A stretch of 38,901 nt of DNA, taken from NCBI GenBank assembly GCA_019637115.1, contig JAHBWH010000065.1:1-38901 (forward strand). Reading direction: 5' to 3'. This stretch comes from Myxococcales bacterium (GTDB lineage Bacteria > Myxococcota_A > Polyangia > Polyangiales > Houyiibacteriaceae). The position numbers and the translations under genes were made by a program. Positions 3,894 through 38,901 of the stretch are shown piece after piece; position 1 is the stretch's first letter; each line of letters starts with the position of its first letter. Under the pieces are notes generated by a model. That model did no database searches. It was not told the origin of the DNA and was given only the letters and a program-made list of their open reading frames with translations.

Positions 3894-5558
3894 ATGAGGG
3901 TGCACGCACTCCTCGCGGCCCTGCTCGCGCTTCCGTGCGCGCTCGTCTCTGGCGGGATCGGCGCGGTCGCCGGCGAGGTGATCGCGAGCGGGGGCCTCCG
4001 GCGGGCGCCGCCGCCGCTCCGCGAGGACGAGGTCGCGCCGCACCGCGCGGCGGTCGTCGGCGCGTTGGAGCGCTACGGCCTCGTCGCCGCGCCAGCCCTC
4101 GTCCGTGGCGTGATCGCCGGAGCGACGCACGCCGAGCCTCGCGAGTGGAGCGTCCCGCTCGCGCTCGACGACGGCGAGTGCTTGGGGCTCGTCGTCAGCG
4201 CGACGCGGCCGATCGAAGCGGCGATCCGGCACGACGCGCAGACGTGGGTGCGCGGGGGCCAGGACGTCGTCGTGGCGCTGAGCCATTGTCGACATGGGCC
4301 CGGCCCGCTGGACCTCGTCGTCCAGTTCCCCGACGCGCAGTACTATGACATCCCCGTCGACGTCGACGTCGCGGTGACGACGCTGCGACCTGCGGGTGAC
4401 GCGCGCTTCGACATCGCCGCGTTGCCTCGGGGGCGAGCGTCACCCGCGCTCGTCCGATGGCTCCGCGAGCACGAGCGCGACGTCGCCATCGCCCGTGACG
4501 CCCGCTATGCGGCAGATCATCCAACGCCGATCTTCGGTCCGGTCGAGCTCACCGCTCCGCGAGGTGCGCTCTTGCTCCCCGACGTCCGGACGTTGCGGCG
4601 CGCGCTGGCGACCGCCGCGGTGGTCGGCTCGACCCTCTCGCCAGAGGAGGTCACGCCCCGCACCTTCGGCGACACCGAGGTCCCCGAGACGGATGCGACG
4701 ACCGCCGCGCTCTTCGTCGGCGAGGCCGCGGTCTATCGCGTGCTCGCGGTGATCGACGCAGGCAACCTCCCGTTCATCGAGGGGCCGGACCTCCCGTGCG
4801 TCGACATCTCGTGGTCACGTCTGGCGCTCGCGTCGCTGGACCGCGCGAACGAGCGCCTCGTCCCCCGCAGCGCGGCCGACGCCTACCGGGTGTTCCGGGC
4901 GGACGCGGCCGGCGCGGACGTCGTCCCGTTGAGCGCGCGCGAGGGCCCCCTCGAGGAAGGGATCACCGTCGACCGTCGCTGCCCGTCCGATGGCCTCGTG
5001 TATTACCTCACCGCGGACTACGACGACGCGCCGTACCGGCTGCGCATCGAGGCCGCCGGCGAGGGCGGAGGGCCACGGCGTCCAACCGAGATCGCGCGCG
5101 CGGTCCCGGTTCACCCCGCGCTGCGGCGCGCTCGCGCAGGCTGCGACGAGCTCGCCGACCCGCGCGTCGCGACCGACGGAGACGGCGCGACGCGTTGTGT
5201 CGACCTCGCTCGCCGCGAGCGCTTCGGCGTCCACGGCCCGATCGACCTCACCGCGGCGCGCCGTGCGTACGAGCGCGCCTGCGCACACGGGACCGGCTGC
5301 GTCGAGCTCGCGGCGCTGCTCCGCGCCCAAGACCCAGGAGCCGCGCGCGCGCTCTTGCAGCGACGCTGCGATGAGGAAGCCGCGCTGGAGTGCATGGTGC
5401 TCGGCGACGACTATCGGCTCCGGGCGCGTGACCAAGACGATCTCCGGGCCGCGTTCGATGCCTACCAGCGGGGGTGTGAGCTCGGCGAGACCGGCAGTTG
5501 TCGAAACCGCGATGCGATGGTGACCCTCCAGCTCGTGAGTCCGCCTCCGAGCGAGTGA
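3894..5558 (+). CDS. secreted protein with Sel1/TPR-like tail
   Basis: A 554-residue protein with an N-terminal signal peptide (MRVHALLAALLALPCALVSG). The first about 400 residues have no motif I recognise; they are strand-rich and contain few cysteines. The last about 130 residues hold repeated helical pairs with spaced cysteines (YERACAHGTGCVELAALL, YQRGCELGETGSC), the pattern of cysteine-containing Sel1-like repeats used for protein binding in the envelope. The ATG at 3894 has a short purine-rich stretch (cggagg) just upstream and fits the signal peptide; earlier in-frame starts do not. It is divergent from the DUF1517 gene with about 70 bp between starts. Its 3' end is duplicated at positions 2-34. 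Confidence 0.7.
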   Translation: MRVHALLAALLALPCALVSGGIGAVAGEVIASGGLRRAPPPLREDEVAPHRAAVVGALERYGLVAAPALVRGVIAGATHAEPREWSVPLALDDGECLGLVVSATRPIEAAIRHDAQTWVRGGQDVVVALSHCRHGPGPLDLVVQFPDAQYYDIPVDVDVAVTTLRPAGDARFDIAALPRGRASPALVRWLREHERDVAIARDARYAADHPTPIFGPVELTAPRGALLLPDVRTLRRALATAAVVGSTLSPEEVTPRTFGDTEVPETDATTAALFVGEAAVYRVLAVIDAGNLPFIEGPDLPCVDISWSRLALASLDRANERLVPRSAADAYRVFRADAAGADVVPLSAREGPLEEGITVDRRCPSDGLVYYLTADYDDAPYRLRIEAAGEGGGPRRPTEIARAVPVHPALRRARAGCDELADPRVATDGDGATRCVDLARRERFGVHGPIDLTAARRAYERACAHGTGCVELAALLRAQDPGAARALLQRRCDEEAALECMVLGDDYRLRARDQDDLRAAFDAYQRGCELGETGSCRNRDAMVTLQLVSPPPSE

Positions 5559-5611
5559 CCGCGCAGGGAGGCGTACCAGACCGTCTCCTTGCGCGAGCGT
5601 TGCTGGGGCGG

Positions 5612-6364
5612 TCAGAGCGTGCGCGCCACCTGGAAGCCCGCGAAGGACTGGCTCACGGGCATGAGCTCGACGCGGTTGATGTTCAGGTGCGAGGGGAGGT
5701 TCGCGACCCACCAGATGCACTCCGCGATGTCCGCGCCCGTCATCGGGCTCGTGCCGGCGTAGAGCGTGTCGGAGGCCTCGCGGTTGCCGCCGGTGCGGAC
5801 GAGCGTGAACTCGGTCTCGGCGAGCCCGGGCTCGATGGTGGTCACGCGAACCCCGGTGCCGTGCAGGTCGGAGCGCAGGCCGAGCGAGAGCTGCGAGACG
5901 AAGGCCTTGGTGCCGCCGTAGACGTTGCCGCCGAGGTAGGGATACGTCGCCGCCACGGAGCTCACGTTCACGATCGCGCCGCGACGCTCGATGAGCCTCG
6001 GCAAGAGCGCGTGGGTGAGCGTGACGAGCGCCGTGACGTTCGTGTCGATCATCTGGCGCCACTGCGCGAGGTCGGCGTGCTGCGCGGGCGCGGTGCCGAG
6101 CGCGAGGCCCGCGTTGTTCACGAGCAGATCGAGGTCCGCGAAGGGCGCCGGGATCGCCTCGAGCGCTGCCCGCATCGCCGCCTCGTCGCGCACGTCGAAC
6201 GCGCACGGGTGGATCTTCTCGGGGCCGAGCGCGGCGACCAGCTCGGCCAGCCGATCGGCCCGTCTCCCGCACGCGATCGCCCGCCAACCCGCGCTGACGA
6301 AGCGCTCCACCGTCGCCCGCCCGAACCCCGAGGTCGCCCCCGTCACCAACAACGTCTTGGTCAT
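5612..6364 (-). CDS. YdfG-type short-chain dehydrogenase
   Basis: A 250-residue classical SDR. The NADP-binding motif TGATSGFG is at residues 8-15, NNAG at 83-86, and the catalytic residues are Ser135/136, Tyr149 and Lys153 (VYGGTK). It aligns along its length with E. coli YdfG, an NADP-dependent 3-hydroxy acid (serine, 3-hydroxypropionate) dehydrogenase. Shared landmarks include NNAGLALG, GNVYG-TKAFV, the IEPGL loop and a C-terminal NIN..E.MPV.QS.AG. Exact substrate is not fixed by the sequence. The start at 6364 is set by the Rossmann strand; a longer frame to 6400 adds 12 unlikely residues. It lies about 50 bp downstream of the NorF-like gene on the same strand. A fragment of its 5' end recurs at 278-362. 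Confidence 0.9.
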   Translation of the reverse strand: MTKTLLVTGATSGFGRATVERFVSAGWRAIACGRRADRLAELVAALGPEKIHPCAFDVRDEAAMRAALEAIPAPFADLDLLVNNAGLALGTAPAQHADLAQWRQMIDTNVTALVTLTHALLPRLIERRGAIVNVSSVAATYPYLGGNVYGGTKAFVSQLSLGLRSDLHGTGVRVTTIEPGLAETEFTLVRTGGNREASDTLYAGTSPMTGADIAECIWWVANLPSHLNINRVELMPVSQSFAGFQVARTL

Positions 6365-6413
6365 GCGCCGCAGTGTGTAGCACGCCCCGCGGCGGACCAA
6401 TGGCGCGCGGCGC

Positions 6414-28040: not shown

Positions 28041-28756
28041 GAGAGAGCGCTACGCACCTTCGCCTCGTCATGGAGATGACGCAGGCGCCCGATCGGCCGG
28101 CCTATCCCGCGGCCTGCCCCGACTGCCCCGGCGCGCGTCTGGCGGTGCTCGAGCCGCTGGTCGGCGCGACCAAGGAGGCGTGCGCGTTCTCGACCGTGCA
28201 CCTCGCCTCGCGCCTGCCGATCCCGCCGAGCTGGGCGAGCTTCGGCATCGCGCTGATCCGGCGCGGCGTGCTCATCCGGCAGCGCGTGGACGACGACGGC
28301 CACGCCACCGCGATCGACGCCGCAGGCCCCGGCTGCCTCGTGCCGCTCGACGAGCTCGAGGGCCACGGCTACGCGATCGGCGACACCATCGTGTGCATGT
28401 GCCCGCGCAGCCGCCTCGACGAGGCGCTCTCGGGCGCGTCGGTCGCGCAGGATCTCCTGGACCTGCACCGCTCCGCCATCCGCCGCGTCGAGCGCCTCGC
28501 CGAGGCGCGCGGGGCCTCATCGGGCGTGCGCAAGGTCGCGCGCTGCCTCGTCGTGCTCGCCGAGACCCTCTCACCGCCCCGCGTCCGAGACGACCTCCCG
28601 CTGGGCTTCCAGCAGCGCGACCTCGCCGCGCTCATCGGCATGCGCCACGAGAGCGTCTGCCGCGCCCTCGGCGTCCTGGAGCGAGACGGCTGCGTCACCC
28701 GCGGAGGAAACGGATCAATCGACGCGTTGGTGGTGGAGTCCTTGCGGGCAGTCTAA
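28037..28756 (+). CDS. Crp/Fnr family transcription regulator
   Basis: A 239-residue protein with an N-terminal cyclic-nucleotide-type sensor domain and a C-terminal winged helix (LGFQQRDLAALIGMRHESVCRALGVL). The recognition helix has Glu205, Cys208 and Arg209 in the places of FNR Glu209, Ser212 and Arg213, so it should read TGA..TCA half-sites. Cysteines at 27, 30, 49, 100, 120 and 122 include a CxxC near the N terminus (CPDC) and a Cys near FNR's Cys122, so an oxygen- or NO-sensitive iron-sulfur cluster is possible, though the spacing differs from E. coli FNR. It is translationally coupled to tryptophanase. Matching operators are at 7465, 7581 and 26590. Confidence 0.88.
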
Positions 28757-29185
28757 AGGGAAAAAGAAGTCCCCTGCCCGTGCCCGTGCCCCTGCCCCTG
28801 CCCACCAATAAACACCAGAACCACGAACCGATTGAACCCCGCTGCGGCCCTCAGACCCGGCGGCACACCCGCCAGCCCACAAACCCGGCACCCAGCCCAC
28901 AGACCTGGCACCCAGCCATCGGACCCGGCCTCGGCTCGGCCACCGGACCCAGCCCTCGGACCCCGGCACCCGGCCATCGGACCCGGCCATCGGACCCGGC
29001 CACCGGACCCGGCCACCGGACCCGGCCACCGGACCCGGCCATCGAACCCGGCCATCGAACCCGGCCATCGAACCCGGGCATCGAACCCGGCCCCGGCCAT
29101 CGGACCCGGCCATCGGACCCGACCCGGCCATCGGACCCAAACATCGAACGCCGACTCGGACCTGGAAGCGCGAGCCCCGTCGCGC
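28757..29185. other. repeat-filled intergenic region
   Basis: This 429-bp region between the regulator and the CMD gene holds five TGCCCN hexamers (about 28774-28803), degenerate repeats and then a 13-bp tandem array. Long frames across it, such as a minus-strand one rich in Gly-Arg-Val-Arg-Trp-Pro, are by-products of the repeats. Confidence 0.75.
28972..29138. repeat. 13-bp tandem repeat array
   Basis: Twelve copies of ggccatcggaccc or close variants (ccaccgg, ccatcgaa) are arranged head to tail, interrupted only by two short partial units (ggcccc and gaccc). Degenerate units extend left to about 28860. The period is not a multiple of three. The units abut without spacers. Confidence 0.92.
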
Positions 29186-29708: not shown

Positions 29709-32700
29709 ATGCTGCACCTCGAGAGCCTCTCGGCCGACCAACGCCACGTCGTCGACGCGCTGGCGGTGGTCTGCGCGCCCGTCAGCCGGTCCGACGTCGC
29801 GCGGATCCTGCGGGAGCGCGGTGTCGGTCAGGGGACCGGCAGCGGCAAGCCGGGAGAGGGCGCGCGGCTCACATCGAAGGTCGTGAGCGCCCTCGTCGAC
29901 GATCTCGACGTGGACGGGCCGGACGGCTGCACGGTGGCGCCCGAGGTCCGCGCGCGAGCGCTCGCCGAGCTCGTGGAGCGCGGCGAGTACGATGCGTGGG
30001 TCGAGGCCGTCCAATGCGCGATGCCGCGAGGACGCGCGGGGGAGTGGCGCGAGAAGGTGTGCCTGCTGCAGGCGAACCTGCTCCGTGGCGAGATCGACCC
30101 AGTCGTGGCGTTCGTTCGCAACGACGCGCGAGGCTTGGATGCCTTGGCGGCGGCCATTCCGGAGGCGTGGCGGCTCGCGCCATTGATGCCAGGCCCCTCG
30201 GGGGCGCTCGTGATCCGCGTCGAGCTCGACCGCGCGCTCGAGTCGTGGAGCGAGATGGGCGAGCTGGTCGAGCTGGCGCGCGCCTACGCCGCTGACGATC
30301 GGCTCCTTGCGCTCTCGCTCGCCGCCGTCGAGTGCGCGCGTGGAGAGCTCGAGCTCGCAGAAGCGCTCGTTCAGCCCCATCGAGAGGTCGCGAGCATCGC
30401 CGACCCCGTGACGGGTCTGCTGCGGCTGGCTCGGGGCGACGTCGATGGCGCGGTCGAGGCGTTCGACCGCGGGGCGCTCGCGCTGCGCAAGGCCACGCGC
30501 AGTCGGCGGGTCGTGCCGCTCGACGAGCCCTACGACGCCCTCCATGCGCTCGCCCTGGCCCGCCGTGGGGACGTTGACTTGAACCGAGCGACGCAAGCTC
30601 CGACGCTCGTCGCCGAGCTCGAGAAGTATGTCAGCGGAACGCAGCAGAAGCGGCGGCTGTGGTGGAACGGGAAGTCACCGTGGGAAGCCCTCGCCCTCTG
30701 CCTAGCGCACACGTTCTCGGGGAACGAGGCCGAGGCGGCGAAGCTCGCGAACGATCTCCGCGAGCAGGCGAAGCGGGTGGGGTTCGCGCTCATCGCAGAG
30801 GTCTGCGCGGACGTCGTGGGGCGCGCTCGCGGGAGGGCGCCGACGTCGTCGTGGGTTCGAGCGATGGAGCCACCCGCCGCTTGGCGCCGCAAGCTCGACC
30901 AGCTGACCGAGCTCGTCGACGGGCCGGCTGCCGCGGACCCCTCCTCGGAGGCGCCCATGGAGCGGCTCGTCTTCGCGGTCGAGGGCCGGAATGGCCACCC
31001 GTCCGTCGAGGCGCGGCTCCAGTCGCGCCGGACCGGGACGTGGTCGAAGGGGCGCAAGGTGGCGACGCAGCGCCTCGTGGAGGACCCGCCCGTCACGCTC
31101 TCACCCGAGGACCAGCAGGTCGTGCGGCACGTCCACGTCGAGACACGGTACGACTATCGAGGTTACCCCGAGACGATCGCCTACTTCGACGATGGGGTGA
31201 TCCATGCGCTGACGAAGCACCCCCGCGTCGTCCGCGCCGATGATGGCAGCCCGCTCACCCTGCGGCTTCGCCGACCGATGCTCGAGGTCACCCGGGACGA
31301 CGCGGGGATGCTGCTCCGGCTCGTGCCGAGCGCGCCCAAGATCGAGGACCTCGGCGCCACGATGGAGGTCGTGCGCTTCGACGAGGCCGCGTCGAAGGTG
31401 GCGTCCATCGTCGAGACGGGGCTTCAGGTCCCTCCCGAGGGCGTCGAGGCGCTCGGCGCCATCCTCGGGAGGCTGACTGCCAAGGTGCCGCTGGTCTCGG
31501 ACCCGCAGGTCGCCCTCGAGGGGGTCGAGGCGCAGGCGGTCGACGTGGTGTTGCGGGCCCGGCTTCGGCGCGAGGCGCAGACGTCGTTGTCCTACGCGAT
31601 CGTCGTCACGCCCCTCGGCGAGGGCGGCCCGGCGTACGAGCCTGGGCGCGGGCCCGCGCAGATCACCGCCGACGGCGCGACCTTTCGGCGGGACCTCTCG
31701 GCCGAGCGAGCGTCGTTCGACGCTTGGCGCGACGCGCTCGAGCAGAGCGGGGTCCCGGCCGCGGAGGCTGGGCTGGCCGAGGGCGCCGAGGCGGCGCTCG
31801 CGTTGCTGGATGCCTGCCGCGCCCACGACGTCGTCCTGGAGTGGCCGGAGGGCGAGCCGTTGCGCCTGCAGCGCGTCGAAGCGCGTCATCTGCGCTTCGG
31901 GCTCGCGGGCGCCGCCGAGTGGCTTCGGCTCGAGGGCGGGGCGAAGCTCGACGACGGGTTGGTGCTCGACATGCGGGCGCTGCTCTCGTCGGAGTGCGCG
32001 CGTGACGGCTACGTCGTGCTCGACGACGGCGCGATCGCGGTCCTCGAGCGTGGCTTGCGACGCTCGCTCGCGTCACTCGCGGCCTTCGCGGACGCGGACG
32101 GTGACGGCGTGCACCGCAGCGTCCTGCTCACGCTCGAGGAGCTCGGCCTCGAGCCGAAGCTCGATCGGAGCGTCAAGCGCACGCTGGCCGAGGTGCAGCG
32201 AGCGCTCCACGACCCTGTCGTCGTCCCCGTGGCCCTCGACGCCGAGCTACGCGGGTACCAGCGCGAAGGCTTCGAGTGGCTCGTCCGTCGTGCGCGCCTC
32301 GGCGTCGGCGCTTGCCTCGCGGACGACATGGGGCTCGGCAAGACCGTTCAGGCGTTGGCGCTCCTGCTCGAGCGGGCCGCCGACGGACCAGCCCTCGTCG
32401 TCGCGCCGACGAGCGTGGTCCAGGGTTGGGTCGAACAGGCGGTGCGTTTCGCGCCTTCGCTGCGGCTCCGCGTGCTCGAGGCCGCCACCGCGCGAGAAGA
32501 GCGCGACGCCATCCTGCGCGACGCGGCCGCCTTCGACGTAGTGGTGACGACCTGGGGGTTGCTGGCGCGAGAGCACGGGCGGCAGCCCGAACGGCCGGCC
32601 GAAGGCGCGAAGCGACGTGGCGTCGAGGCGAGGGAGCCGGACATGCTCACGGGCGTGGAGTGGAGCACGGTCGTGCTCGACGAGGCCCAGGCCATGAAGA

Positions 32701-33674
32701 ACGCGCAGACTCGACGCGCGAAGGCGGCCATGGCGCTCCGCGCCCGCGCGCGCTTCGCCCTCTCGGGGACACCGGTCGAGAACCGCGTCGACGAGCTCTG
32801 GAGCCTCTTCGGGTTCCTGCAGCCAGGGCTGCTCGGGACCGAGCAGCGCTTCCGCGCGACGTTCGCCGAGCCCATCGCAAAGGGCGACGAGGCCGCGCGC
32901 GAAGCCCTGCGCGCGCGGGTCGCGCCCTTCCTCCTGCGCCGCATGAAGCGCGACGTGCTCCGCGAGCTCCCGCCGCGCACCGAGATCCGCTTGGACGTGC
33001 GACCGAGCAAAGAACAGGCGGCGCTCATCGAGGCCACGCGACGGGAGGGCCTCGAGCGCGTCGAGCAGGCTGGTCCCCGGCGCGCTCGGGTCGAGGTCCT
33101 CGCGGCGCTCACCAAGCTGCGGCTCGCGTGCTGTCACCCGCGGCTGGTCGTCGACGAGCGCGAGATCGACAGCGCCAAGACGCAGGTCTTCCTCGAGCTC
33201 GTCGACGAGCTGCGGGCTGCAGGCCACCGCGCGCTCGTCTTCAGCCAGTTCGTCCGCCACCTCGCCTTGGTGCGCGAGGAGCTCGACGCGCGCGGCGTCT
33301 CCTACCAATACCTCGACGGAGCGACCTCGGTGCGCGACCGGCGCGCGGCCATCGACGCCTTCCAAGGGGGCGCAGGCGACCTCTTCCTCATCAGCCTGAA
33401 AGCCGGCGGGACCGGCCTGAACCTCACGGCCGCCGACTACGTCGTCCATCTCGACCCGTGGTGGAACCCGGCCGTCGAGGACCAGGCGACCGATCGCGCG
33501 CATCGCATCGGGCAAACGCGGCCCGTCACGGTGTATCGCCTCGTGCTCGAGGGCAGCGTCGAGCAGCGGATCCTCGCTCTGCACGAGCAGAAGCGCGAGC
33601 TCGCGGACGCCATCCTCGCGGGGGAAGGCGCGGCGCTCGACTTCGACATGCTGCGGTCGTTGCTCGTGGGGTAG
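29709..33674 (+). CDS. SNF2-family helicase with long N-terminal region
   Basis: A 1321-residue protein. Residues 1 to about 830 are a helical, partly TPR-like region followed by strand-rich sequence with no motif I can name. From about 835 comes a SNF2 ATPase: Walker A in DDMGLGKTVQ (about 873-882), DEAQ (about 990), SGTPVENR, then helicase C with SLKAGGTGLNLT and the arginine-finger motif QATDRAHRIGQ (about 1260). Bacterial SNF2 proteins remodel protein-DNA complexes and occur in housekeeping and phage-defence settings. It is intact and uninterrupted. A 42-bp stretch (33279-33320) recurs exactly at the end of the window. Confidence 0.93.
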   Translation: MLHLESLSADQRHVVDALAVVCAPVSRSDVARILRERGVGQGTGSGKPGEGARLTSKVVSALVDDLDVDGPDGCTVAPEVRARALAELVERGEYDAWVEAVQCAMPRGRAGEWREKVCLLQANLLRGEIDPVVAFVRNDARGLDALAAAIPEAWRLAPLMPGPSGALVIRVELDRALESWSEMGELVELARAYAADDRLLALSLAAVECARGELELAEALVQPHREVASIADPVTGLLRLARGDVDGAVEAFDRGALALRKATRSRRVVPLDEPYDALHALALARRGDVDLNRATQAPTLVAELEKYVSGTQQKRRLWWNGKSPWEALALCLAHTFSGNEAEAAKLANDLREQAKRVGFALIAEVCADVVGRARGRAPTSSWVRAMEPPAAWRRKLDQLTELVDGPAAADPSSEAPMERLVFAVEGRNGHPSVEARLQSRRTGTWSKGRKVATQRLVEDPPVTLSPEDQQVVRHVHVETRYDYRGYPETIAYFDDGVIHALTKHPRVVRADDGSPLTLRLRRPMLEVTRDDAGMLLRLVPSAPKIEDLGATMEVVRFDEAASKVASIVETGLQVPPEGVEALGAILGRLTAKVPLVSDPQVALEGVEAQAVDVVLRARLRREAQTSLSYAIVVTPLGEGGPAYEPGRGPAQITADGATFRRDLSAERASFDAWRDALEQSGVPAAEAGLAEGAEAALALLDACRAHDVVLEWPEGEPLRLQRVEARHLRFGLAGAAEWLRLEGGAKLDDGLVLDMRALLSSECARDGYVVLDDGAIAVLERGLRRSLASLAAFADADGDGVHRSVLLTLEELGLEPKLDRSVKRTLAEVQRALHDPVVVPVALDAELRGYQREGFEWLVRRARLGVGACLADDMGLGKTVQALALLLERAADGPALVVAPTSVVQGWVEQAVRFAPSLRLRVLEAATAREERDAILRDAAAFDVVVTTWGLLAREHGRQPERPAEGAKRRGVEAREPDMLTGVEWSTVVLDEAQAMKNAQTRRAKAAMALRARARFALSGTPVENRVDELWSLFGFLQPGLLGTEQRFRATFAEPIAKGDEAAREALRARVAPFLLRRMKRDVLRELPPRTEIRLDVRPSKEQAALIEATRREGLERVEQAGPRRARVEVLAALTKLRLACCHPRLVVDEREIDSAKTQVFLELVDELRAAGHRALVFSQFVRHLALVREELDARGVSYQYLDGATSVRDRRAAIDAFQGGAGDLFLISLKAGGTGLNLTAADYVVHLDPWWNPAVEDQATDRAHRIGQTRPVTVYRLVLEGSVEQRILALHEQKRELADAILAGEGAALDFDMLRSLLVG

Positions 33675-33859
33675 CGCGCCGGCTGACGATCCTCTCCGCG
33701 ATCGGGGGCTGCGCCTATGGGTCCTGGCGATTCAGTCGGCACGGCGCCGAGGTCGACGCGATCTCTTCGGAGCCCGCGAGATCCTCGACGTGGCTCGCGA
33801 GGTCACCGGCGAACATGACGGCGACGCCGTGCTCCGAGCGAACGGGGAGCGAAGTCTCG

Positions 33860-34126
33860 GTGAAGCGAATCATGACGCGCTTGGACTCTCTCGCGCCGCA
33901 GCTGGCGCTGGCCGAAGCGGAGGCGAGCGCGGGGTTGCTCGAGTGCGGGACGGTCCGCGCCGGCGACTGCGAGTACCTCTGGCGACGGTTCGCCCCTCTC
34001 GTACCGACGAACCCTGACGAGCTCAGCCTCGGCGACCGCCTACGACGCCAAGCGGGCGCGTGCTGCGGGCTGCTCCTATGGCGTCGCGCGCTCGGCTCCG
34101 CGCGCTTCTGGGCATCGCGAGCCTAG
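33860..34126 (+). CDS. small unknown protein, possibly truncated by an amber stop
   Basis: An 88-residue frame (GTG at 33860, or ATG at 33872) with a strong third-position G/C bias over 33901-33960 (19 of 20), so it is probably coding. It contains Leu/Ala/Glu helices and three cysteines. It ends at TAG (34124-34126), but the same frame continues open to 34372 with Ala/Glu-rich helical sequence (LAARAEVDAASPALSAAEAHL). This may be one gene split by a nonsense mutation or two small genes. I do not recognise it. Confidence 0.45.
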   Translation: MKRIMTRLDSLAPQLALAEAEASAGLLECGTVRAGDCEYLWRRFAPLVPTNPDELSLGDRLRRQAGACCGLLLWRRALGSARFWASRA

Positions 34127-34426
34127 GTCGCCGAGGTGCTCGCTGCCCGCGCCGAGGTAGACGCCGCGAGTCCCGCGCTGTCCGCCGCCGAGGCCCACCT
34201 GGTCGACGCGCTGGAATCGCAGGCAGAAGCGGCACGAACGACCCGCGCAGCCCATCGGACCGCGTATCACGCGTGCGCGACGCTGGAGCTTCGTGAGGAG
34301 CGTCGCGGCGGCTGCGGTGCGGCGCCATCCGAGGGTGCGGGGGCCGAGGCCGAGCGCGCTGGGCCCCAGTAACTCGGGACAGAATATGTCCGACGGCGCT
34401 CGACGGCTGACACCCTCGTCGCCACA

Positions 34427-35461
34427 ATGGGCGCGATGAGACGCTCTGCGGGACGCCGATCGGGCGCGTACACGCAAACCGAGCGGGTGCTCGAATTGAT
34501 GACGATCCTCCGTGCACGTCGGACAGCGGTTCGTCTCGACGCGCTGGCTGAGCGCGTCGGCGTCTCGGAGAAGCAGCTCCGGCGCGACCTCGCGATGCTC
34601 TCGGCGGCCGGTCTCGATCCCAAGCTCGTGCGCATCGACGGGCGCAGCGCCGTGGTGCTCGCGCGCAGCTCGCAAGAGACCATCGCGCTGTCCTTGCGGG
34701 AACGCCTCACGCTCCTCGCGATGCGCGACGCCTTCGAGTCACTCCATGGAACGCCTTTCGCTGAAGACGCCAAGCGAATCTCCGAGAAGCTCGTCGCCAC
34801 GCTGCCGGACGCGTTGAGACTCGAGTTCGAGGCCCTCGGCCCGCGCTTCCAGTACGTCCCGGACGGCGGCATCAAACACTACGGGGATCACGCCGACGTC
34901 GTCGACGAGCTCTTCACCGGCGCCCTGCGGCGCCAGAAGGTCGACGCCACCTACGTGTCCGCGCGGGGCACGGAGCGCGTCGAAGCGTTCGAGCCGTGGG
35001 GCCTCGCCCTCTACCGCAACGGTCTCTACGTGGTCGGGCGCTGGGAGCGCGACGCGGCGCCGCGCGTGCTCGCGATCGAGCGCTTCCGCGCGGCGGAGCG
35101 CCGGCGCCGATCCCACTTCGAGGTGCCGGCCGACTTCTCGATCGCCAGCTTCTTCCACGGCGCGTTCGGGATGTTTCCCGGAGCGCCGCGGCGCGTCGTG
35201 CTCGACTTCGACGCGTCCGTCCAGGGTCTCGTCGAGGCCCGGCGTTTCCACACCACCCAGGAGACTGTGCGTCGCTCCGACGGTGGGGTCCGCATGACGT
35301 TGCACGTCCCGACGAGCCCTGATGTAGTCGCGTGGCTCGTCGGCTGGGGGCCGAGAGTCGTCGTTGTGGAGCCGGAAGACCTGGCCGACGCCGTGCGCGA
35401 AGAGCACCGATGCGCACTGGAGCGCGGCATGCCGAACTCCGGTACCATACACGCAACGTGA
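34427..35461 (+). CDS. WYL-domain transcription regulator
   Basis: A 344-residue protein. Residues about 15-75 form an HTH of the DeoR/HTH_11 type (LDALAERVGVSEKQLRRDLAML). A WYL domain follows (about 155-230), with EPWGLALYRNGLYVVGRW where the WYL ligand-binding motif sits, then a C-terminal WCX-type extension. WYL regulators sense ligands, often nucleic acid fragments, and often control DNA-damage or defence genes. Start 34427 or 34436. It lies 13 bp upstream of the GIY-YIG gene on the same strand. A decayed copy of its N terminus lies at 36717-36783 on the minus strand. Confidence 0.9.
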   Translation: MGAMRRSAGRRSGAYTQTERVLELMTILRARRTAVRLDALAERVGVSEKQLRRDLAMLSAAGLDPKLVRIDGRSAVVLARSSQETIALSLRERLTLLAMRDAFESLHGTPFAEDAKRISEKLVATLPDALRLEFEALGPRFQYVPDGGIKHYGDHADVVDELFTGALRRQKVDATYVSARGTERVEAFEPWGLALYRNGLYVVGRWERDAAPRVLAIERFRAAERRRRSHFEVPADFSIASFFHGAFGMFPGAPRRVVLDFDASVQGLVEARRFHTTQETVRRSDGGVRMTLHVPTSPDVVAWLVGWGPRVVVVEPEDLADAVREEHRCALERGMPNSGTIHAT

Positions 35462-35474
35462 GAGGAGGCGTCCG

Positions 35475-36011
35475 ATGGGCCTGGATATGAGCGATTTCGA
35501 ATTCGGTCGTTGCGAGAAGAAGGAAGCGAACGTAGTCGTGCTTCAGTGGCATGTGTTTCGTGCGGACGAACCATCTAACTGGAGTCTTTGTATCAAGGAA
35601 GCGAAAGAGCTGCTCGCTGGACAGGCGGGAGTGTACTGCATCGAAGGAAGCCACGATGCTCGTCCGACTCCAGGGCCGCTCTACATCGGCGAAACAAAGA
35701 GAGATTTCGGCGAGAGGTTGAGCGTCGTCGGCTCCATTGGATTCTTTTTCTTTAAGAGAGACAAGTCGTCGCTCGAGAGCTACGCCGACATATGGAATCT
35801 ATCCATTCGTTGCGCGAAGGTTGAACAGTCGGTCGTTGGTGCTGTGGAGACTCTTCTGATACGTGCGCACAAGCCGAACTACAATTCAAAGGATATCAAG
35901 GGCACTCTATCCGACGACTTGCTCCTGCTCAACGTCGGCAGAAAGGGACACCTGCTCCCCGTGGTCTGCAGTTGGTACTTCGCCCCGTCTGACCAGTGGC
36001 CGACGAAGTGA
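35475..36011 (+). CDS. GIY-YIG nuclease-like protein
   Basis: A 178-residue protein with a GIY-YIG-type core: GVY at 52-54, YIG at 70-72 (LYIGET), an Arg in GERL near 81 and Glu125 (ETLLIRAHKPNYN), matching the catalytic Arg and metal-binding Glu of this nuclease family. The N-terminal about 45 residues are extra. A good ribosome site (ggagg) precedes the ATG at 35475. The base composition is clearly lower in G+C than its neighbours, with runs such as ttctttttcttt, which points to recent transfer. It follows the WYL gene closely. Confidence 0.8.
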   Translation: MGLDMSDFEFGRCEKKEANVVVLQWHVFRADEPSNWSLCIKEAKELLAGQAGVYCIEGSHDARPTPGPLYIGETKRDFGERLSVVGSIGFFFFKRDKSSLESYADIWNLSIRCAKVEQSVVGAVETLLIRAHKPNYNSKDIKGTLSDDLLLLNVGRKGHLLPVVCSWYFAPSDQWPTK

Positions 36012-36406
36012 CGTCGAACCGCGAGACGCCCCTCGATCACTGCTACGAGCCGCTGCTCGCTCGGCGCGTCCCACACGCGGATGTGGTCGCCGGGCGCGGG
36101 TACGTGATCCACGCCCGCAACGGCGGGGTCGGGGTCGCTGTCCGTGACGGAAACCGCCTCGGCTACCGCCTGCGTCGCCAGAAGTTCGACCGGATCTTCC
36201 TCTTCGTCGAGTGGGACTGGGCGGAAGGTCCGCCGTACGGCACCGCGATCCCGCTGCAGGAGGTCGCCACCGAAGCTCCCGCCGACGAGCGGGACTGGAT
36301 CGGGTGGCTCGAGGCACTCGAGGCCGCGTATGCGGACGAAATTCGGGAAGCATGGGAGACCGTCTGGAGGTCGATGATCGCCGGGCGTGGTGGCGCAGCA
36401 GGGTGA
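35996..36406 (+). CDS. unknown protein partner of the GIY-YIG gene
   Basis: A 136-residue protein with a GTG start inside the end of the GIY-YIG gene (16-bp overlap). The sequence is tryptophan- and acid-rich with protein-like strand and helix patterns (RGYVIHARNGGVGVAV, FDRIFLFVEWDWAEG, DWIGWLEALEAAYADEIREAW). There is no signal peptide or known motif. Its composition returns to high G+C. The tight overlap suggests a functional pair, but its role is unknown. Confidence 0.6.
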   Translation: MADEVTSNRETPLDHCYEPLLARRVPHADVVAGRGYVIHARNGGVGVAVRDGNRLGYRLRRQKFDRIFLFVEWDWAEGPPYGTAIPLQEVATEAPADERDWIGWLEALEAAYADEIREAWETVWRSMIAGRGGAAG

Positions 36407-36537: not shown

Positions 36538-36692
36538 GTGGACCGCGTGGCTCGTCGTGGCGCTTCTTGACCTGTCCAAGACCGACGTCATCGATGATGA
36601 GGAGCGCGGGGCGCGCCCAGGCCTTGAGGCGCCGCGCCTAAGAGGTCGTCGGGGAGATCGACGGGGAGATCGACGACGCGGGCATACCGCAT
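36538..36692 (-). pseudogene. IstB-like (IS21 helper ATPase) remnant
   Basis: The minus strand encodes RRLKAWARPALLIIDDVGLGQ and KKRHDEP. This matches the Walker B region of IstB-type ATPases of IS21 elements, where a basic RLK.(Y/W).RP.LLIIDD stretch is typical. A preceding segment starting at 36692 (MRYARVVDL) is in a different frame. Walker A and the C terminus are missing. It is a short, frameshifted relic of an insertion sequence; no terminal repeats were found. Confidence 0.55.
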
Positions 36693-36716
36693 GGGGATGC
36701 CCTGAGAGCTTGGGCG

Positions 36717-36783
36717 CTAACAACCAGCGTCCGCACCTGCTCCGCTTGTGAGTAGGCGCCTGGGCGACGTCCAGCAGATCGCG
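36717..36783 (-). pseudogene. fragment of a WYL regulator gene
   Basis: The minus-strand reading RSAGRRPGAYSQAEQVRTL resembles the N terminus of the WYL regulator at 34427 (RSAGRRSGAYTQTERVLEL). Nothing of the HTH or WYL domain follows. It is a relic of a related gene. Confidence 0.55.
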
Positions 36784-36934
36784 TTATCTCGAGCCATCGT
36801 GGCGATGTTCCGAAACGACGTCGGGTCGCGTGGGACATCGCTTGGTCCACGGAGTCTCCGTCGCTCGGGGGCCGAGCACGTCTTGGAGCTCCTCGACGTC
36901 AAACCCTGGAACCGAGCACCAAAGCTCCTCCGAG

Positions 36935-37645
36935 CTAGCCCGAGACCACTTGGGTCCGCGAGGCAAGGGCTTCAGCGACGAAAGCGACCCAGCGCGGAAG
37001 CTGGGTGTGCTTGATCCGAGCCCCAGCGTCTTCGAGGACGCGGCCCGAGAGTTCACCCGCCCTGAGGATGCTCCATGGTGGCTGTGCGAGCTGGTCGGAA
37101 GGATCGTCCGGATCGAGTGGGGCAGTGTGGAGCAGGAGCGTCAGAAGTGCTGGGCGCTCGCGGGCCGCAAGCTCGACTTGCCCGGACCCGTCGAGCCGCA
37201 GGGCGGTATAGAGCGACGCGCGAATCTCAAGTGGGAAGCACTTCGCGAGCGCGCACGCGTGGGGGTCAAGCGTCGAGATGGCACGGGAGCGGTGGGTCTC
37301 GCGCCAAGCGTCGAGCCTCGACGTCCACGCGAACACGGACGGATCGTCGACATCGCAAGAGCATTCGACGAGTTCGTCGAGGAGATCCGTGTGGAGGGTC
37401 GGTCGTCCCCTGCGATCGTGCTCGAGCACGCGGCTCCGTGGTACAGCGTCCCACACGCACTGATCCGTCGTCGCTTGGGCCCCGCATCGCGTGCAGGATG
37501 CATGCACGCGCAGGAGCGTTTCGTGTCCCTCGACCTCGAAGCGCAGCGGCCCGCACGGTTGAATGCCTAGTGGACGCTCGACTTCGAAGAGTGCGCCGCG
37601 CCAGCGTGTGTCGGATGGAGCGAGGGGGAGAAGTCGTTGGCCCAT
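36935..37645 (-). CDS. unknown protein, possibly frameshifted at its end
   Basis: A 236-residue frame with third-position G/C enrichment on the minus strand in the two stretches I counted (37201-37260 and 37321-37380), which favours it over the plus-strand frame in the same place. It has a possible zinc site (CTRCG, and C..C further on) and no signal peptide. The stop lies within a region where another minus frame continues with protein-like sequence (SSEELWCSVPGFDVEELQDVLG), so the original C terminus may have been shifted. ATG at 37645, or TTG at 37657. I do not recognise it. Confidence 0.45.
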   Translation of the reverse strand: MGQRLLPLAPSDTRWRGALFEVERPLGIQPCGPLRFEVEGHETLLRVHASCTRCGAQATTDQCVWDAVPRSRVLEHDRRGRPTLHTDLLDELVECSCDVDDPSVFAWTSRLDAWRETHRSRAISTLDPHACALAKCFPLEIRASLYTALRLDGSGQVELAARERPALLTLLLHTAPLDPDDPSDQLAQPPWSILRAGELSGRVLEDAGARIKHTQLPRWVAFVAEALASRTQVVSG

Positions 37646-37768
37646 GAGATCCGCCAATTGCCGAGCACATCACGTCGATAGCCGAGCACATCAGCCAGGG
37701 CACGCGAGCGTCAAGCTCGATCAAGATGACCGAACCCTGGGACGAGGAATGTCCCTGGCCGGAGTTCT

Positions 37769-38525: not shown

Positions 38526-38901
38526 GTGCAGCTCTCCTCTCGGCTCGGCGTCTTCTCGCCCGGAATCCTGCGCAGCCCGCACCTGCGCAGATTTCTCGAC
38601 GGCGCCGAGCTCGTCGCGCGTCCAGATCTCGCGCGTCGCCCCGTCGACGCGGTGATCGGCTGGGGCCACAAGCCCACCGCGGATCGTGCGCGCGCGTTCG
38701 CCGCGCGTGAAGGTCTCCCGTACCTTGCGCTCGAAGACGGCTTCCTTCGCTCCGTCCTGCTCGGCGTGACGGGCGAGCCGCCGCTCTCGATCGTCGTCGA
38801 CGAGCTCGGCGTCCACTACGACCGCGACCGGTCCCTCGCGCCTGGAGCAAACCATCGCCGAGCTCGACGCGCGCGGCGTCTCCTACCAATACCTCGACGG
38901 A
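38526..38901 (+). CDS. KpsC-like capsule polysaccharide protein, partial
   Basis: The frame opens with GTG at 38526 and runs off the window. LGVFSPGILRSPHLRRFL, VIGWGHKPTADRARAFA, GLPYLALEDGFLRSVLLG and PPLSIVVDELGVHYD match the start of Capsule_synth (KpsC) proteins, which are Kdo transferases building the capsule's lipid-linked Kdo primer. After VHYD the frame turns to Arg-rich nonsense. Removing one C near 38823 restores a family-like reading (DATGPSRLEQ), so a one-base insertion, real or artefactual, is likely. The last 42 bases equal part of the SNF2 gene. Confidence 0.8.
   Translation, partial: MQLSSRLGVFSPGILRSPHLRRFLDGAELVARPDLARRPVDAVIGWGHKPTADRARAFAAREGLPYLALEDGFLRSVLLGVTGEPPLSIVVDELGVHYDRDRSLAPGANHRRARRARRLLPIPRR
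38860..38901 (+). repeat. 42-bp exact copy of SNF2 gene segment
   Basis: The last 42 bases of the window are identical to 33279-33320 inside the SNF2 helicase gene, in the same orientation. The match runs to the window's last base. This may be an assembly artefact at a contig end rather than a biological repeat. Confidence 0.9.

Follow-up and report, generated by a model that had tools for sequence, protein, structure and literature searches.

A putative WYL-regulated, restriction-like operon with a GIY-YIG-type nuclease in a Myxococcales bacterium

A gene for a WYL-domain regulator, a gene for a GIY-YIG-type nuclease and a gene for a small partner protein follow each other in the genome of a Myxococcales bacterium, and their sequences suggest to us that they may form a laterally acquired, WYL-regulated, restriction-like operon against foreign DNA; we put the probability of this reading at about one half. 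The stretch of DNA analyzed here, hereafter the window, comprises 38,901 nucleotides and represents the entire contig C397 of an 8.9-Mb genome (G000) available in 434 contigs. A simple codon-based script called 30 genes in it, and the features needed in the following are:

29709..33674, + strand: SNF2 helicase, 1321 aa; a neighbor, judged to lie outside the operon
34427..35461, + strand: WYL regulator (HTH-WYL-WCX), 344 aa; first gene of the proposed operon, assigned by Pfam
35475..36011, + strand: GIY-YIG-type nuclease, 178 aa; assigned by motif and conservation, with no profile match
36008..36406, + strand: partner, a small beta-barrel protein; assigned by overlap, relatives and model
36548..36628, - strand: weak IstB-like (IS21) fragment of about 27 codons, read by eye
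36695..36787, - strand: weak, possible WYL N-terminal fragment of 31 aa (48% by tblastn against six sequences, E 0.006)

Only 13 bp separate the WYL gene from the nuclease gene, and a Shine-Dalgarno sequence (GAGGAGG) lies inside this gap; the ATG at 35475 that follows it is the likeliest start of the nuclease, as against the listed open reading frame start at 35364, and the stop codon occupies 36009-36011. For the partner, we favor the GTG at 36008 over the listed start at 35996 because it gives a 4-nt overlap (GTGA) with the nuclease stop codon, an overlap that is also used in G073, a genome from another family of the same order. Relatives of the partner are 48-54% identical to it, showing that its gene is real. 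The preliminary description had pointed to an overlapping partner and had considered the WYL, GIY-YIG and partner genes close enough for one unit; both points hold, with the partner start moved.

G073 carries a C-terminal relic of the WYL gene, the nuclease and the partner in the same order as the window. The relic, which sits close behind an unrelated gene, comprises 57 residues and matches the window's WYL protein at residues 275-331 (63% identical, tblastn), while the nuclease and the partner are 42% and 56% identical to their window counterparts; at the DNA level, the WYL tail is 73% identical over 132 columns and the partner 77% over 206. Since the tail is 63% identical, as against 43-45% in the nearest intact WYL homologues examined, a WYL gene appears to have joined the pair before its front part was lost in G073. 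Recurrence of the nuclease-partner pair next to WYL genes, which had been suggested as a check, is thus found in one other genome, behind a WYL remnant. From this arrangement, we propose that the three genes form one unit, a three-gene operon.

We classify the nuclease by motif and not by profile, because no library matches it and the motif residues are kept in all three family members. Pfam, NCBIfam, PHROG and PADLOC yielded no significant family, and no GIY-YIG profile of Pfam matched; the best Pfam entry, RE_Eco29kI (PF09517), reached only E 0.15 (12.3 bits against a cut-off of 30.8), and for this reason we do not file the protein under the Eco29kI family. Tyr54, Tyr70, Glu125 and Asn137 are in place in the window protein, and GVY(C), YIG and the catalytic Glu and Asn are kept throughout the family of three, in which GVYC-EG, YIG, VE--LI--H-P--N and, at the C terminus, K-G-LLPVV are common to all members, with a Tyr-Tyr spacing of 16 and a Glu-Asn spacing of 12. 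The catalytic Arg expected on the helix after YIG could correspond to Arg81 of the window protein; the alignment column is not invariant, although inspection by eye allows an Arg to be paired across the three proteins. Two sequence profiles found no significant solved relative. The structural model is poor (pLDDT 52.6); Foldseek returned no GIY-YIG fold and nothing at E 0.001, VIA ranked R.Eco29kI 50th (Z 3.7, rmsd 4.6, 103 aligned) in a list headed by polymerase eta rows (Z 4.3), and the model is too poor for these fold results to count either way. The nuclease may therefore represent an uncatalogued GIY-YIG subfamily relative to Pfam, NCBIfam, PHROG, PADLOC and the literature searched, in which we found nothing on GIY-YIG proteins with a WYL domain in an anti-phage setting, two papers on WYL and defense islands that each name GIY-YIG once and, as far as the accessible texts go, only work on NucB concerning GIY-YIG restriction in Myxobacteria.

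Searches of Myxococcota genomes and of plasmid, phage and viral-contig collections located the nuclease in 2 of 96 relatives, in 3 of 183 searched within the order (G000, G073 and G482) and in 1 of 377 genomes of a phylum sample; the viral contigs, plasmids and phages contained no confirmed relative. The low G+C content of the gene noted in the preliminary description was confirmed (0.539), as was the gene itself with its conserved motif; the start was moved, and no profile supports the class. Its third-position G+C is 0.657, compared to 0.846-0.979 in the 20 called window genes of more than 200 aa. With 0.786 in G073 and 0.679 in G482, the nuclease falls below every called gene of this size in its stretch (minima of 0.846 among 20, 0.895 among 9 and 0.798 among 7 genes for G000, G073 and G482), a difference that is indicative only, since the caller favors GC-rich codons and provides a biased control. 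Trained on such codons, it misses the window nuclease and also hsdS of G482 (third-position G+C 0.590).

The third family member, 37% identical to the window's nuclease, is encoded 60 bp after HsdS on the same strand in G482, a single-contig genome of 14.6 Mb from the same order as the window genome, where it follows a full HsdR-HsdM-HsdS set (PADLOC 4.4e-272, 7.9e-180 and 8.4e-80). A gene for a CARF-type RtcR-like regulator lies upstream, and genes for a PLD-domain protein and an MkoA-like helicase follow further on; tblastn detected no partner or WYL homologue in this 18-kb stretch. Since the genome has only ten N6_Mtase matches in 14.6 Mb, such closeness of nuclease and hsd genes is unlikely to arise by chance (about 0.2%, from 10 x 3 kb / 14.6 Mb), an estimate made after the fact and on one locus. 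Between the nuclease and the PLD-domain gene lies a gene for 545 aa (L106, G482:C1, 9462-11096) that has no Pfam or PADLOC match.

The first gene of the putative operon encodes a protein of HTH-WYL-WCX layout (Pfam WYL 5.1e-9, WCX 1.4e-14), in agreement with its initial annotation as a WYL regulator. This type of regulator is common where the nuclease is rare: homologues at E 1e-20 are present in 39 of 96 related genomes, as against 2 of 96 for the nuclease. The surroundings of three homologues, from two genomes, consist of mixed, non-defense-looking genes. Among solved sequences, WYL/DeoR-family chains and PafBC are nearest to the regulator (E 3.9e-8 and 1.6e-6, respectively), and some of these chains we take to be DriD. 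The regulator resembles BrxR and CapW by its layout and by its position ahead of a putative effector; it differs from them at the WYL position, which, as judged by eye, is occupied by an LYVVG-type sequence without tryptophan in the window protein and in three homologues, while CapW and its immune relatives share this tryptophan according to the accessible text of PMC9122588. In the part of the BrxR survey available to us (PMC9122601), about half of the BrxR homologues lie near known defense systems and no homologue is reported from Deltaproteobacteria. The protein is thus built like a defense regulator, and its role as one is putative. The stretch 7326-9975 of L073 (G015:C30) holds a 45% identical WYL homologue, with a DnaB_C-domain gene and, at L073:9496-9975, a gene of GIY-YIG-like appearance by eye nearby; BLAST showed no relation of the latter to the window nuclease, and it has no Pfam match.

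Partner genes are present in eight genomes (G000, G001, G073, G125, G103, G262, G349 and G381), among them one of the same genus as the window's own (G001); G349 holds a second, partial copy, bringing the total to nine, and a match in G370 (E 5.2e-4) was left out of the count. Two of the nine copies follow the nuclease and seven occur without it. No relatives were found in viral contigs or plasmids, and the five hits among genome contigs belong to G073, G381, G349, G001 and G103. Residues 25-91 of the partner are related to phrog_3740, i.e., to gp58 of Bixzunavirus phages (E 9.3e-6), and this relative was found by tblastn (33.8%, E 9e-3) in 96 Mycobacterium phage records; the phage protein differs in that part of its second half is rich in cysteine. 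The partner has no significant solved relative by sequence. Its model (pLDDT 87.6) shows five strands with helices on both sides, for which Foldseek gave only weak matches (best E 0.025 in the PDB and 5.9e-3 in the viral library); the best VIA match is a chain of the human NEXT complex (Z 5.0, rmsd 5.2, 107 aligned), followed below Z 5 by Mtr4/Ski2-type helicases, large-subunit ribosomal proteins and PWWP domains. The term SH3-like barrel, which might be applied to this model, is our reading of the strand order and leaves a relation unproven.

Two of the partner genes lie near recombination genes. The G103 copy begins 4 nt behind a gene for a resolvase (PF00239 8.2e-45) and is surrounded by genes for PRTase-CE, NADAR, Vsr and two cytosine methyltransferases. 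The G262 copy has a DUF433/HTH gene, an MNT-like gene and a gene for a phage integrase in its vicinity. The remaining copies stand among mixed or housekeeping-like genes, as judged by eye. PADLOC, applied to 29 hand-picked neighbors of partner copies, matched 33 families with one member each, without assignment of the matches to proteins, and the 25 of these 33 families that were listed include many candidate or kinase-like models and also two type IV restriction models. The association with defense neighborhoods that had been proposed as a check is thus found for the two families separately, next to hsdRMS for the nuclease (G482) and next to methyltransferase, Vsr and NADAR genes for the partner (G103). 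The G103 island (L083, G103:C119, 3204-13609) also contains a gene for 873 aa that has no Pfam or PADLOC match.

In the operon as we envisage it, the WYL protein would sense a nucleic-acid signal, e.g., single-stranded DNA, and set expression; the GIY-YIG enzyme would cut DNA; and the partner, translated in step with the nuclease, would help to recognize or hold the substrate or would restrain the nuclease. PADLOC was run separately on the SNF2, WYL, nuclease and partner proteins and on 23 other window proteins (22 called genes plus one uncalled open reading frame, with five short or contig-edge called genes left out), and in this set it detected no methyltransferase and none of hsdR, hsdM and hsdS. 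Because no methyltransferase adjoins the operon, cleavage would need to be conditional: it could be gated by the WYL switch or by the partner, or be aimed at modified or unusual DNA.

Among known enzymes, R.Eco29kI and R.DraR1, described in the accessible texts of PMC1952068 and PMC10855626 as GIY-YIG type II restriction endonucleases, offer the closest comparison, since the nuclease carries the Tyr-Tyr-Glu-Asn set. The catalytic residues given for R.Eco29kI are Y49, Y76, R104, H108, E142 and N154 (PMC1952068); the Glu-Asn spacing of 12 equals that of E142-N154, Eco29kI is the single Pfam family to appear for the nuclease, and R.Eco29kI is the only GIY-YIG enzyme among the VIA matches listed. 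The window nuclease differs in its Tyr-Tyr spacing (16 versus 27), in that no histidine like H108 was recognized by eye, in lacking a methyltransferase alongside and in its extra C-terminal K-G-x-LLPVV motif. A likeness to type I restriction-modification lies in the homologue behind hsdS of G482; the window differs from such loci by the missing hsd genes, the preceding WYL gene and the following partner.

The tight spacing and coupled overlap, the retained GIY-YIG residues, the rarity of the nuclease, the gene order in G073, the hsd setting in G482 and the location of partner genes near a resolvase (G103) or an integrase (G262) gene argue for the operon reading. It is weakest in that no more than three nuclease loci are known in all, one of them without WYL and partner; the seven partner copies without nuclease, the lack of any other defense match in the window proteins scanned, the poor nuclease model, the absence from the regulator of the WYL tryptophan common to CapW-type immune regulators, the lack of a nuclease copy in the plasmid, phage and viral-contig collections searched and the lack of visible element ends also count against it. 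In a more specific form, which we offer tentatively as a possibility, the genes would constitute a small new restriction-like system in which a WYL switch stands over an uncatalogued GIY-YIG subfamily and a small barrel protein gives recognition or restraint; the barrel module would also occur in Bixzunavirus phages and move separately among myxobacterial mobile and defense loci, and the nuclease subfamily could join a type I restriction locus instead. If so, a new nuclease subfamily and a partner protein would join the known restriction-like modules and provide a case of a nuclease without a visible protective methylase that is restrained transcriptionally or through its coupled partner.

Three other explanations of the same genes deserve consideration. 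A DNA-damage operon, in which a DriD/PafBC-like regulator senses single-stranded DNA and the nuclease and partner process the cell's own damaged DNA, would fit the nearest solved relatives of the regulator, the wide occurrence of its homologues and the non-defense-looking neighborhoods of three of them; DriD and PafBC are activated by single-stranded DNA according to the accessible texts of PMC12340889 and PMC11804915. These regulators, however, control chromosomal damage genes, the rare and patchy occurrence of the nuclease is unlike that of repair genes, and one of its relatives sits behind hsdRMS, so that we regard this explanation as unlikely. The conserved 4-nt coupling could be that of a toxin-antitoxin or otherwise selfish pair, whose nuclease harms the host unless the partner neutralizes it and which is maintained through addiction or as an element of the homing type; the patchy, low-G+C nuclease and the partner copies near recombinase or integrase genes are in keeping with this, and orphan partners could be left-over antitoxins. 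That the nuclease of G482 has no recognizable partner, that the partner is far commoner than the nuclease and that neither an interrupted host gene nor element ends are seen makes such a pair quite unlikely in our estimation.

A chromosomal WYL regulator might also have come to lie by chance ahead of an acquired nuclease-partner pair, with neither regulation nor function in common. The near-normal codon composition of the WYL and partner genes, not shared by the nuclease, and the absence of WYL from one of the three nuclease loci are compatible with chance juxtaposition. We consider it highly unlikely, given that the pair in G073 is accompanied by a WYL tail whose identity exceeds that of other WYL homologues, and given the 13-bp gap between the WYL and nuclease genes.

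The preliminary description had drawn the unit wider and viewed the SNF2 gene together with the WYL, nuclease and partner genes as a defense island; a Dpd- or Zorya-like system would be a related possibility. The closeness of the SNF2 gene and the PADLOC scores of its product (DpdE 533 bits, ZorD 339 bits) speak for it. However, the best DpdE scores of all five SNF2 homologues taken from other settings range from 501 to 658 bits, four of them exceeding the window protein, and the DpdE match is therefore non-specific. SNF2 matches at E 1e-60 or better occur in 52 of 57 genomes, with five inside G000, and no family besides SNF2 recurs in three or more of 20 homologue loci; these represent the better homologues, include two from G000 and several that end on short contigs, and have neighbors called by the codon-based script. 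WYL and partner are absent from the called genes of the 20 loci, and the nuclease from their genomes, the window's own excepted. Other Dpd genes were not found in the WYL, nuclease, partner or 23 other window proteins by PADLOC, which gave no match at all at E 1e-10 in the latter 23, at odds with a defense island at this place. We thus reject the SNF2 protein as a Dpd or Zorya component and find the wider unit hardly credible. From its distribution, the SNF2 gene looks like an ordinary chromosomal gene outside the operon, and for this gene the refuting condition set out in the preliminary description applies.

As initially described, the SNF2 protein has 1321 residues, and Pfam recognizes SNF2-rel_dom (7.1e-58) and Helicase_C (7e-24) in it; the nearest NCBIfam entries, SCO1167-type and pilus-regulating Snf2 helicases, remain below cut-off. 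The claim of an unclassified N terminus of 800 residues stands in part: residues 1-597 have no Pfam match and residues 1-840 no significant solved relative (best E 0.41), but from about residue 415 onward the protein aligns with DpdE models and homologues. Since the alignments of the best twenty homologue rows, self excluded, start at residue 323 or later, the first third of the protein appears variable. PADLOC DpdE models give 500-660 bits also on long SNF2 proteins that myxobacteria encode in other settings; hits of the DpdE and ZorD profiles to long SNF2 proteins of bacteria are thus, taken alone, no evidence of a defense system.

Short fragments are present downstream of the operon, where relics of an IS21-type element and of a WYL gene had been reported, and they are too weak to carry weight. 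Positions 36549-36582 of the IstB-like fragment form a 34-bp, 97% match to contig C33 of the same genome; a PF01695 search of this genome at E 0.1 gave 27 matches, none of them in the window. Neither element ends nor an interrupted host gene are visible, and lateral transfer of the operon is suggested by patchiness and composition instead. Further downstream, 36935-37657 (- strand) contains an open reading frame of 240 aa that the codon-based script leaves uncalled and that has no significant family (best Pfam E 0.25).

Both ends of the window duplicate inner sequence and are probably assembly edges: the last 42 bp (38860-38901) are identical to 33279-33320 within the SNF2 gene, positions 278-362 are 98.8% identical to 6283-6367, and positions 2-37 also match 5548-5583. 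The roughly 750 bp that separate the SNF2 gene from the WYL gene (33675-34426) contain no called gene on either strand. Ahead of the SNF2 gene, at about 28750-29140, short degenerate tandem repeats are found that give a Pro/Arg-rich reading (HRTRPSDPA-like) in several frames.
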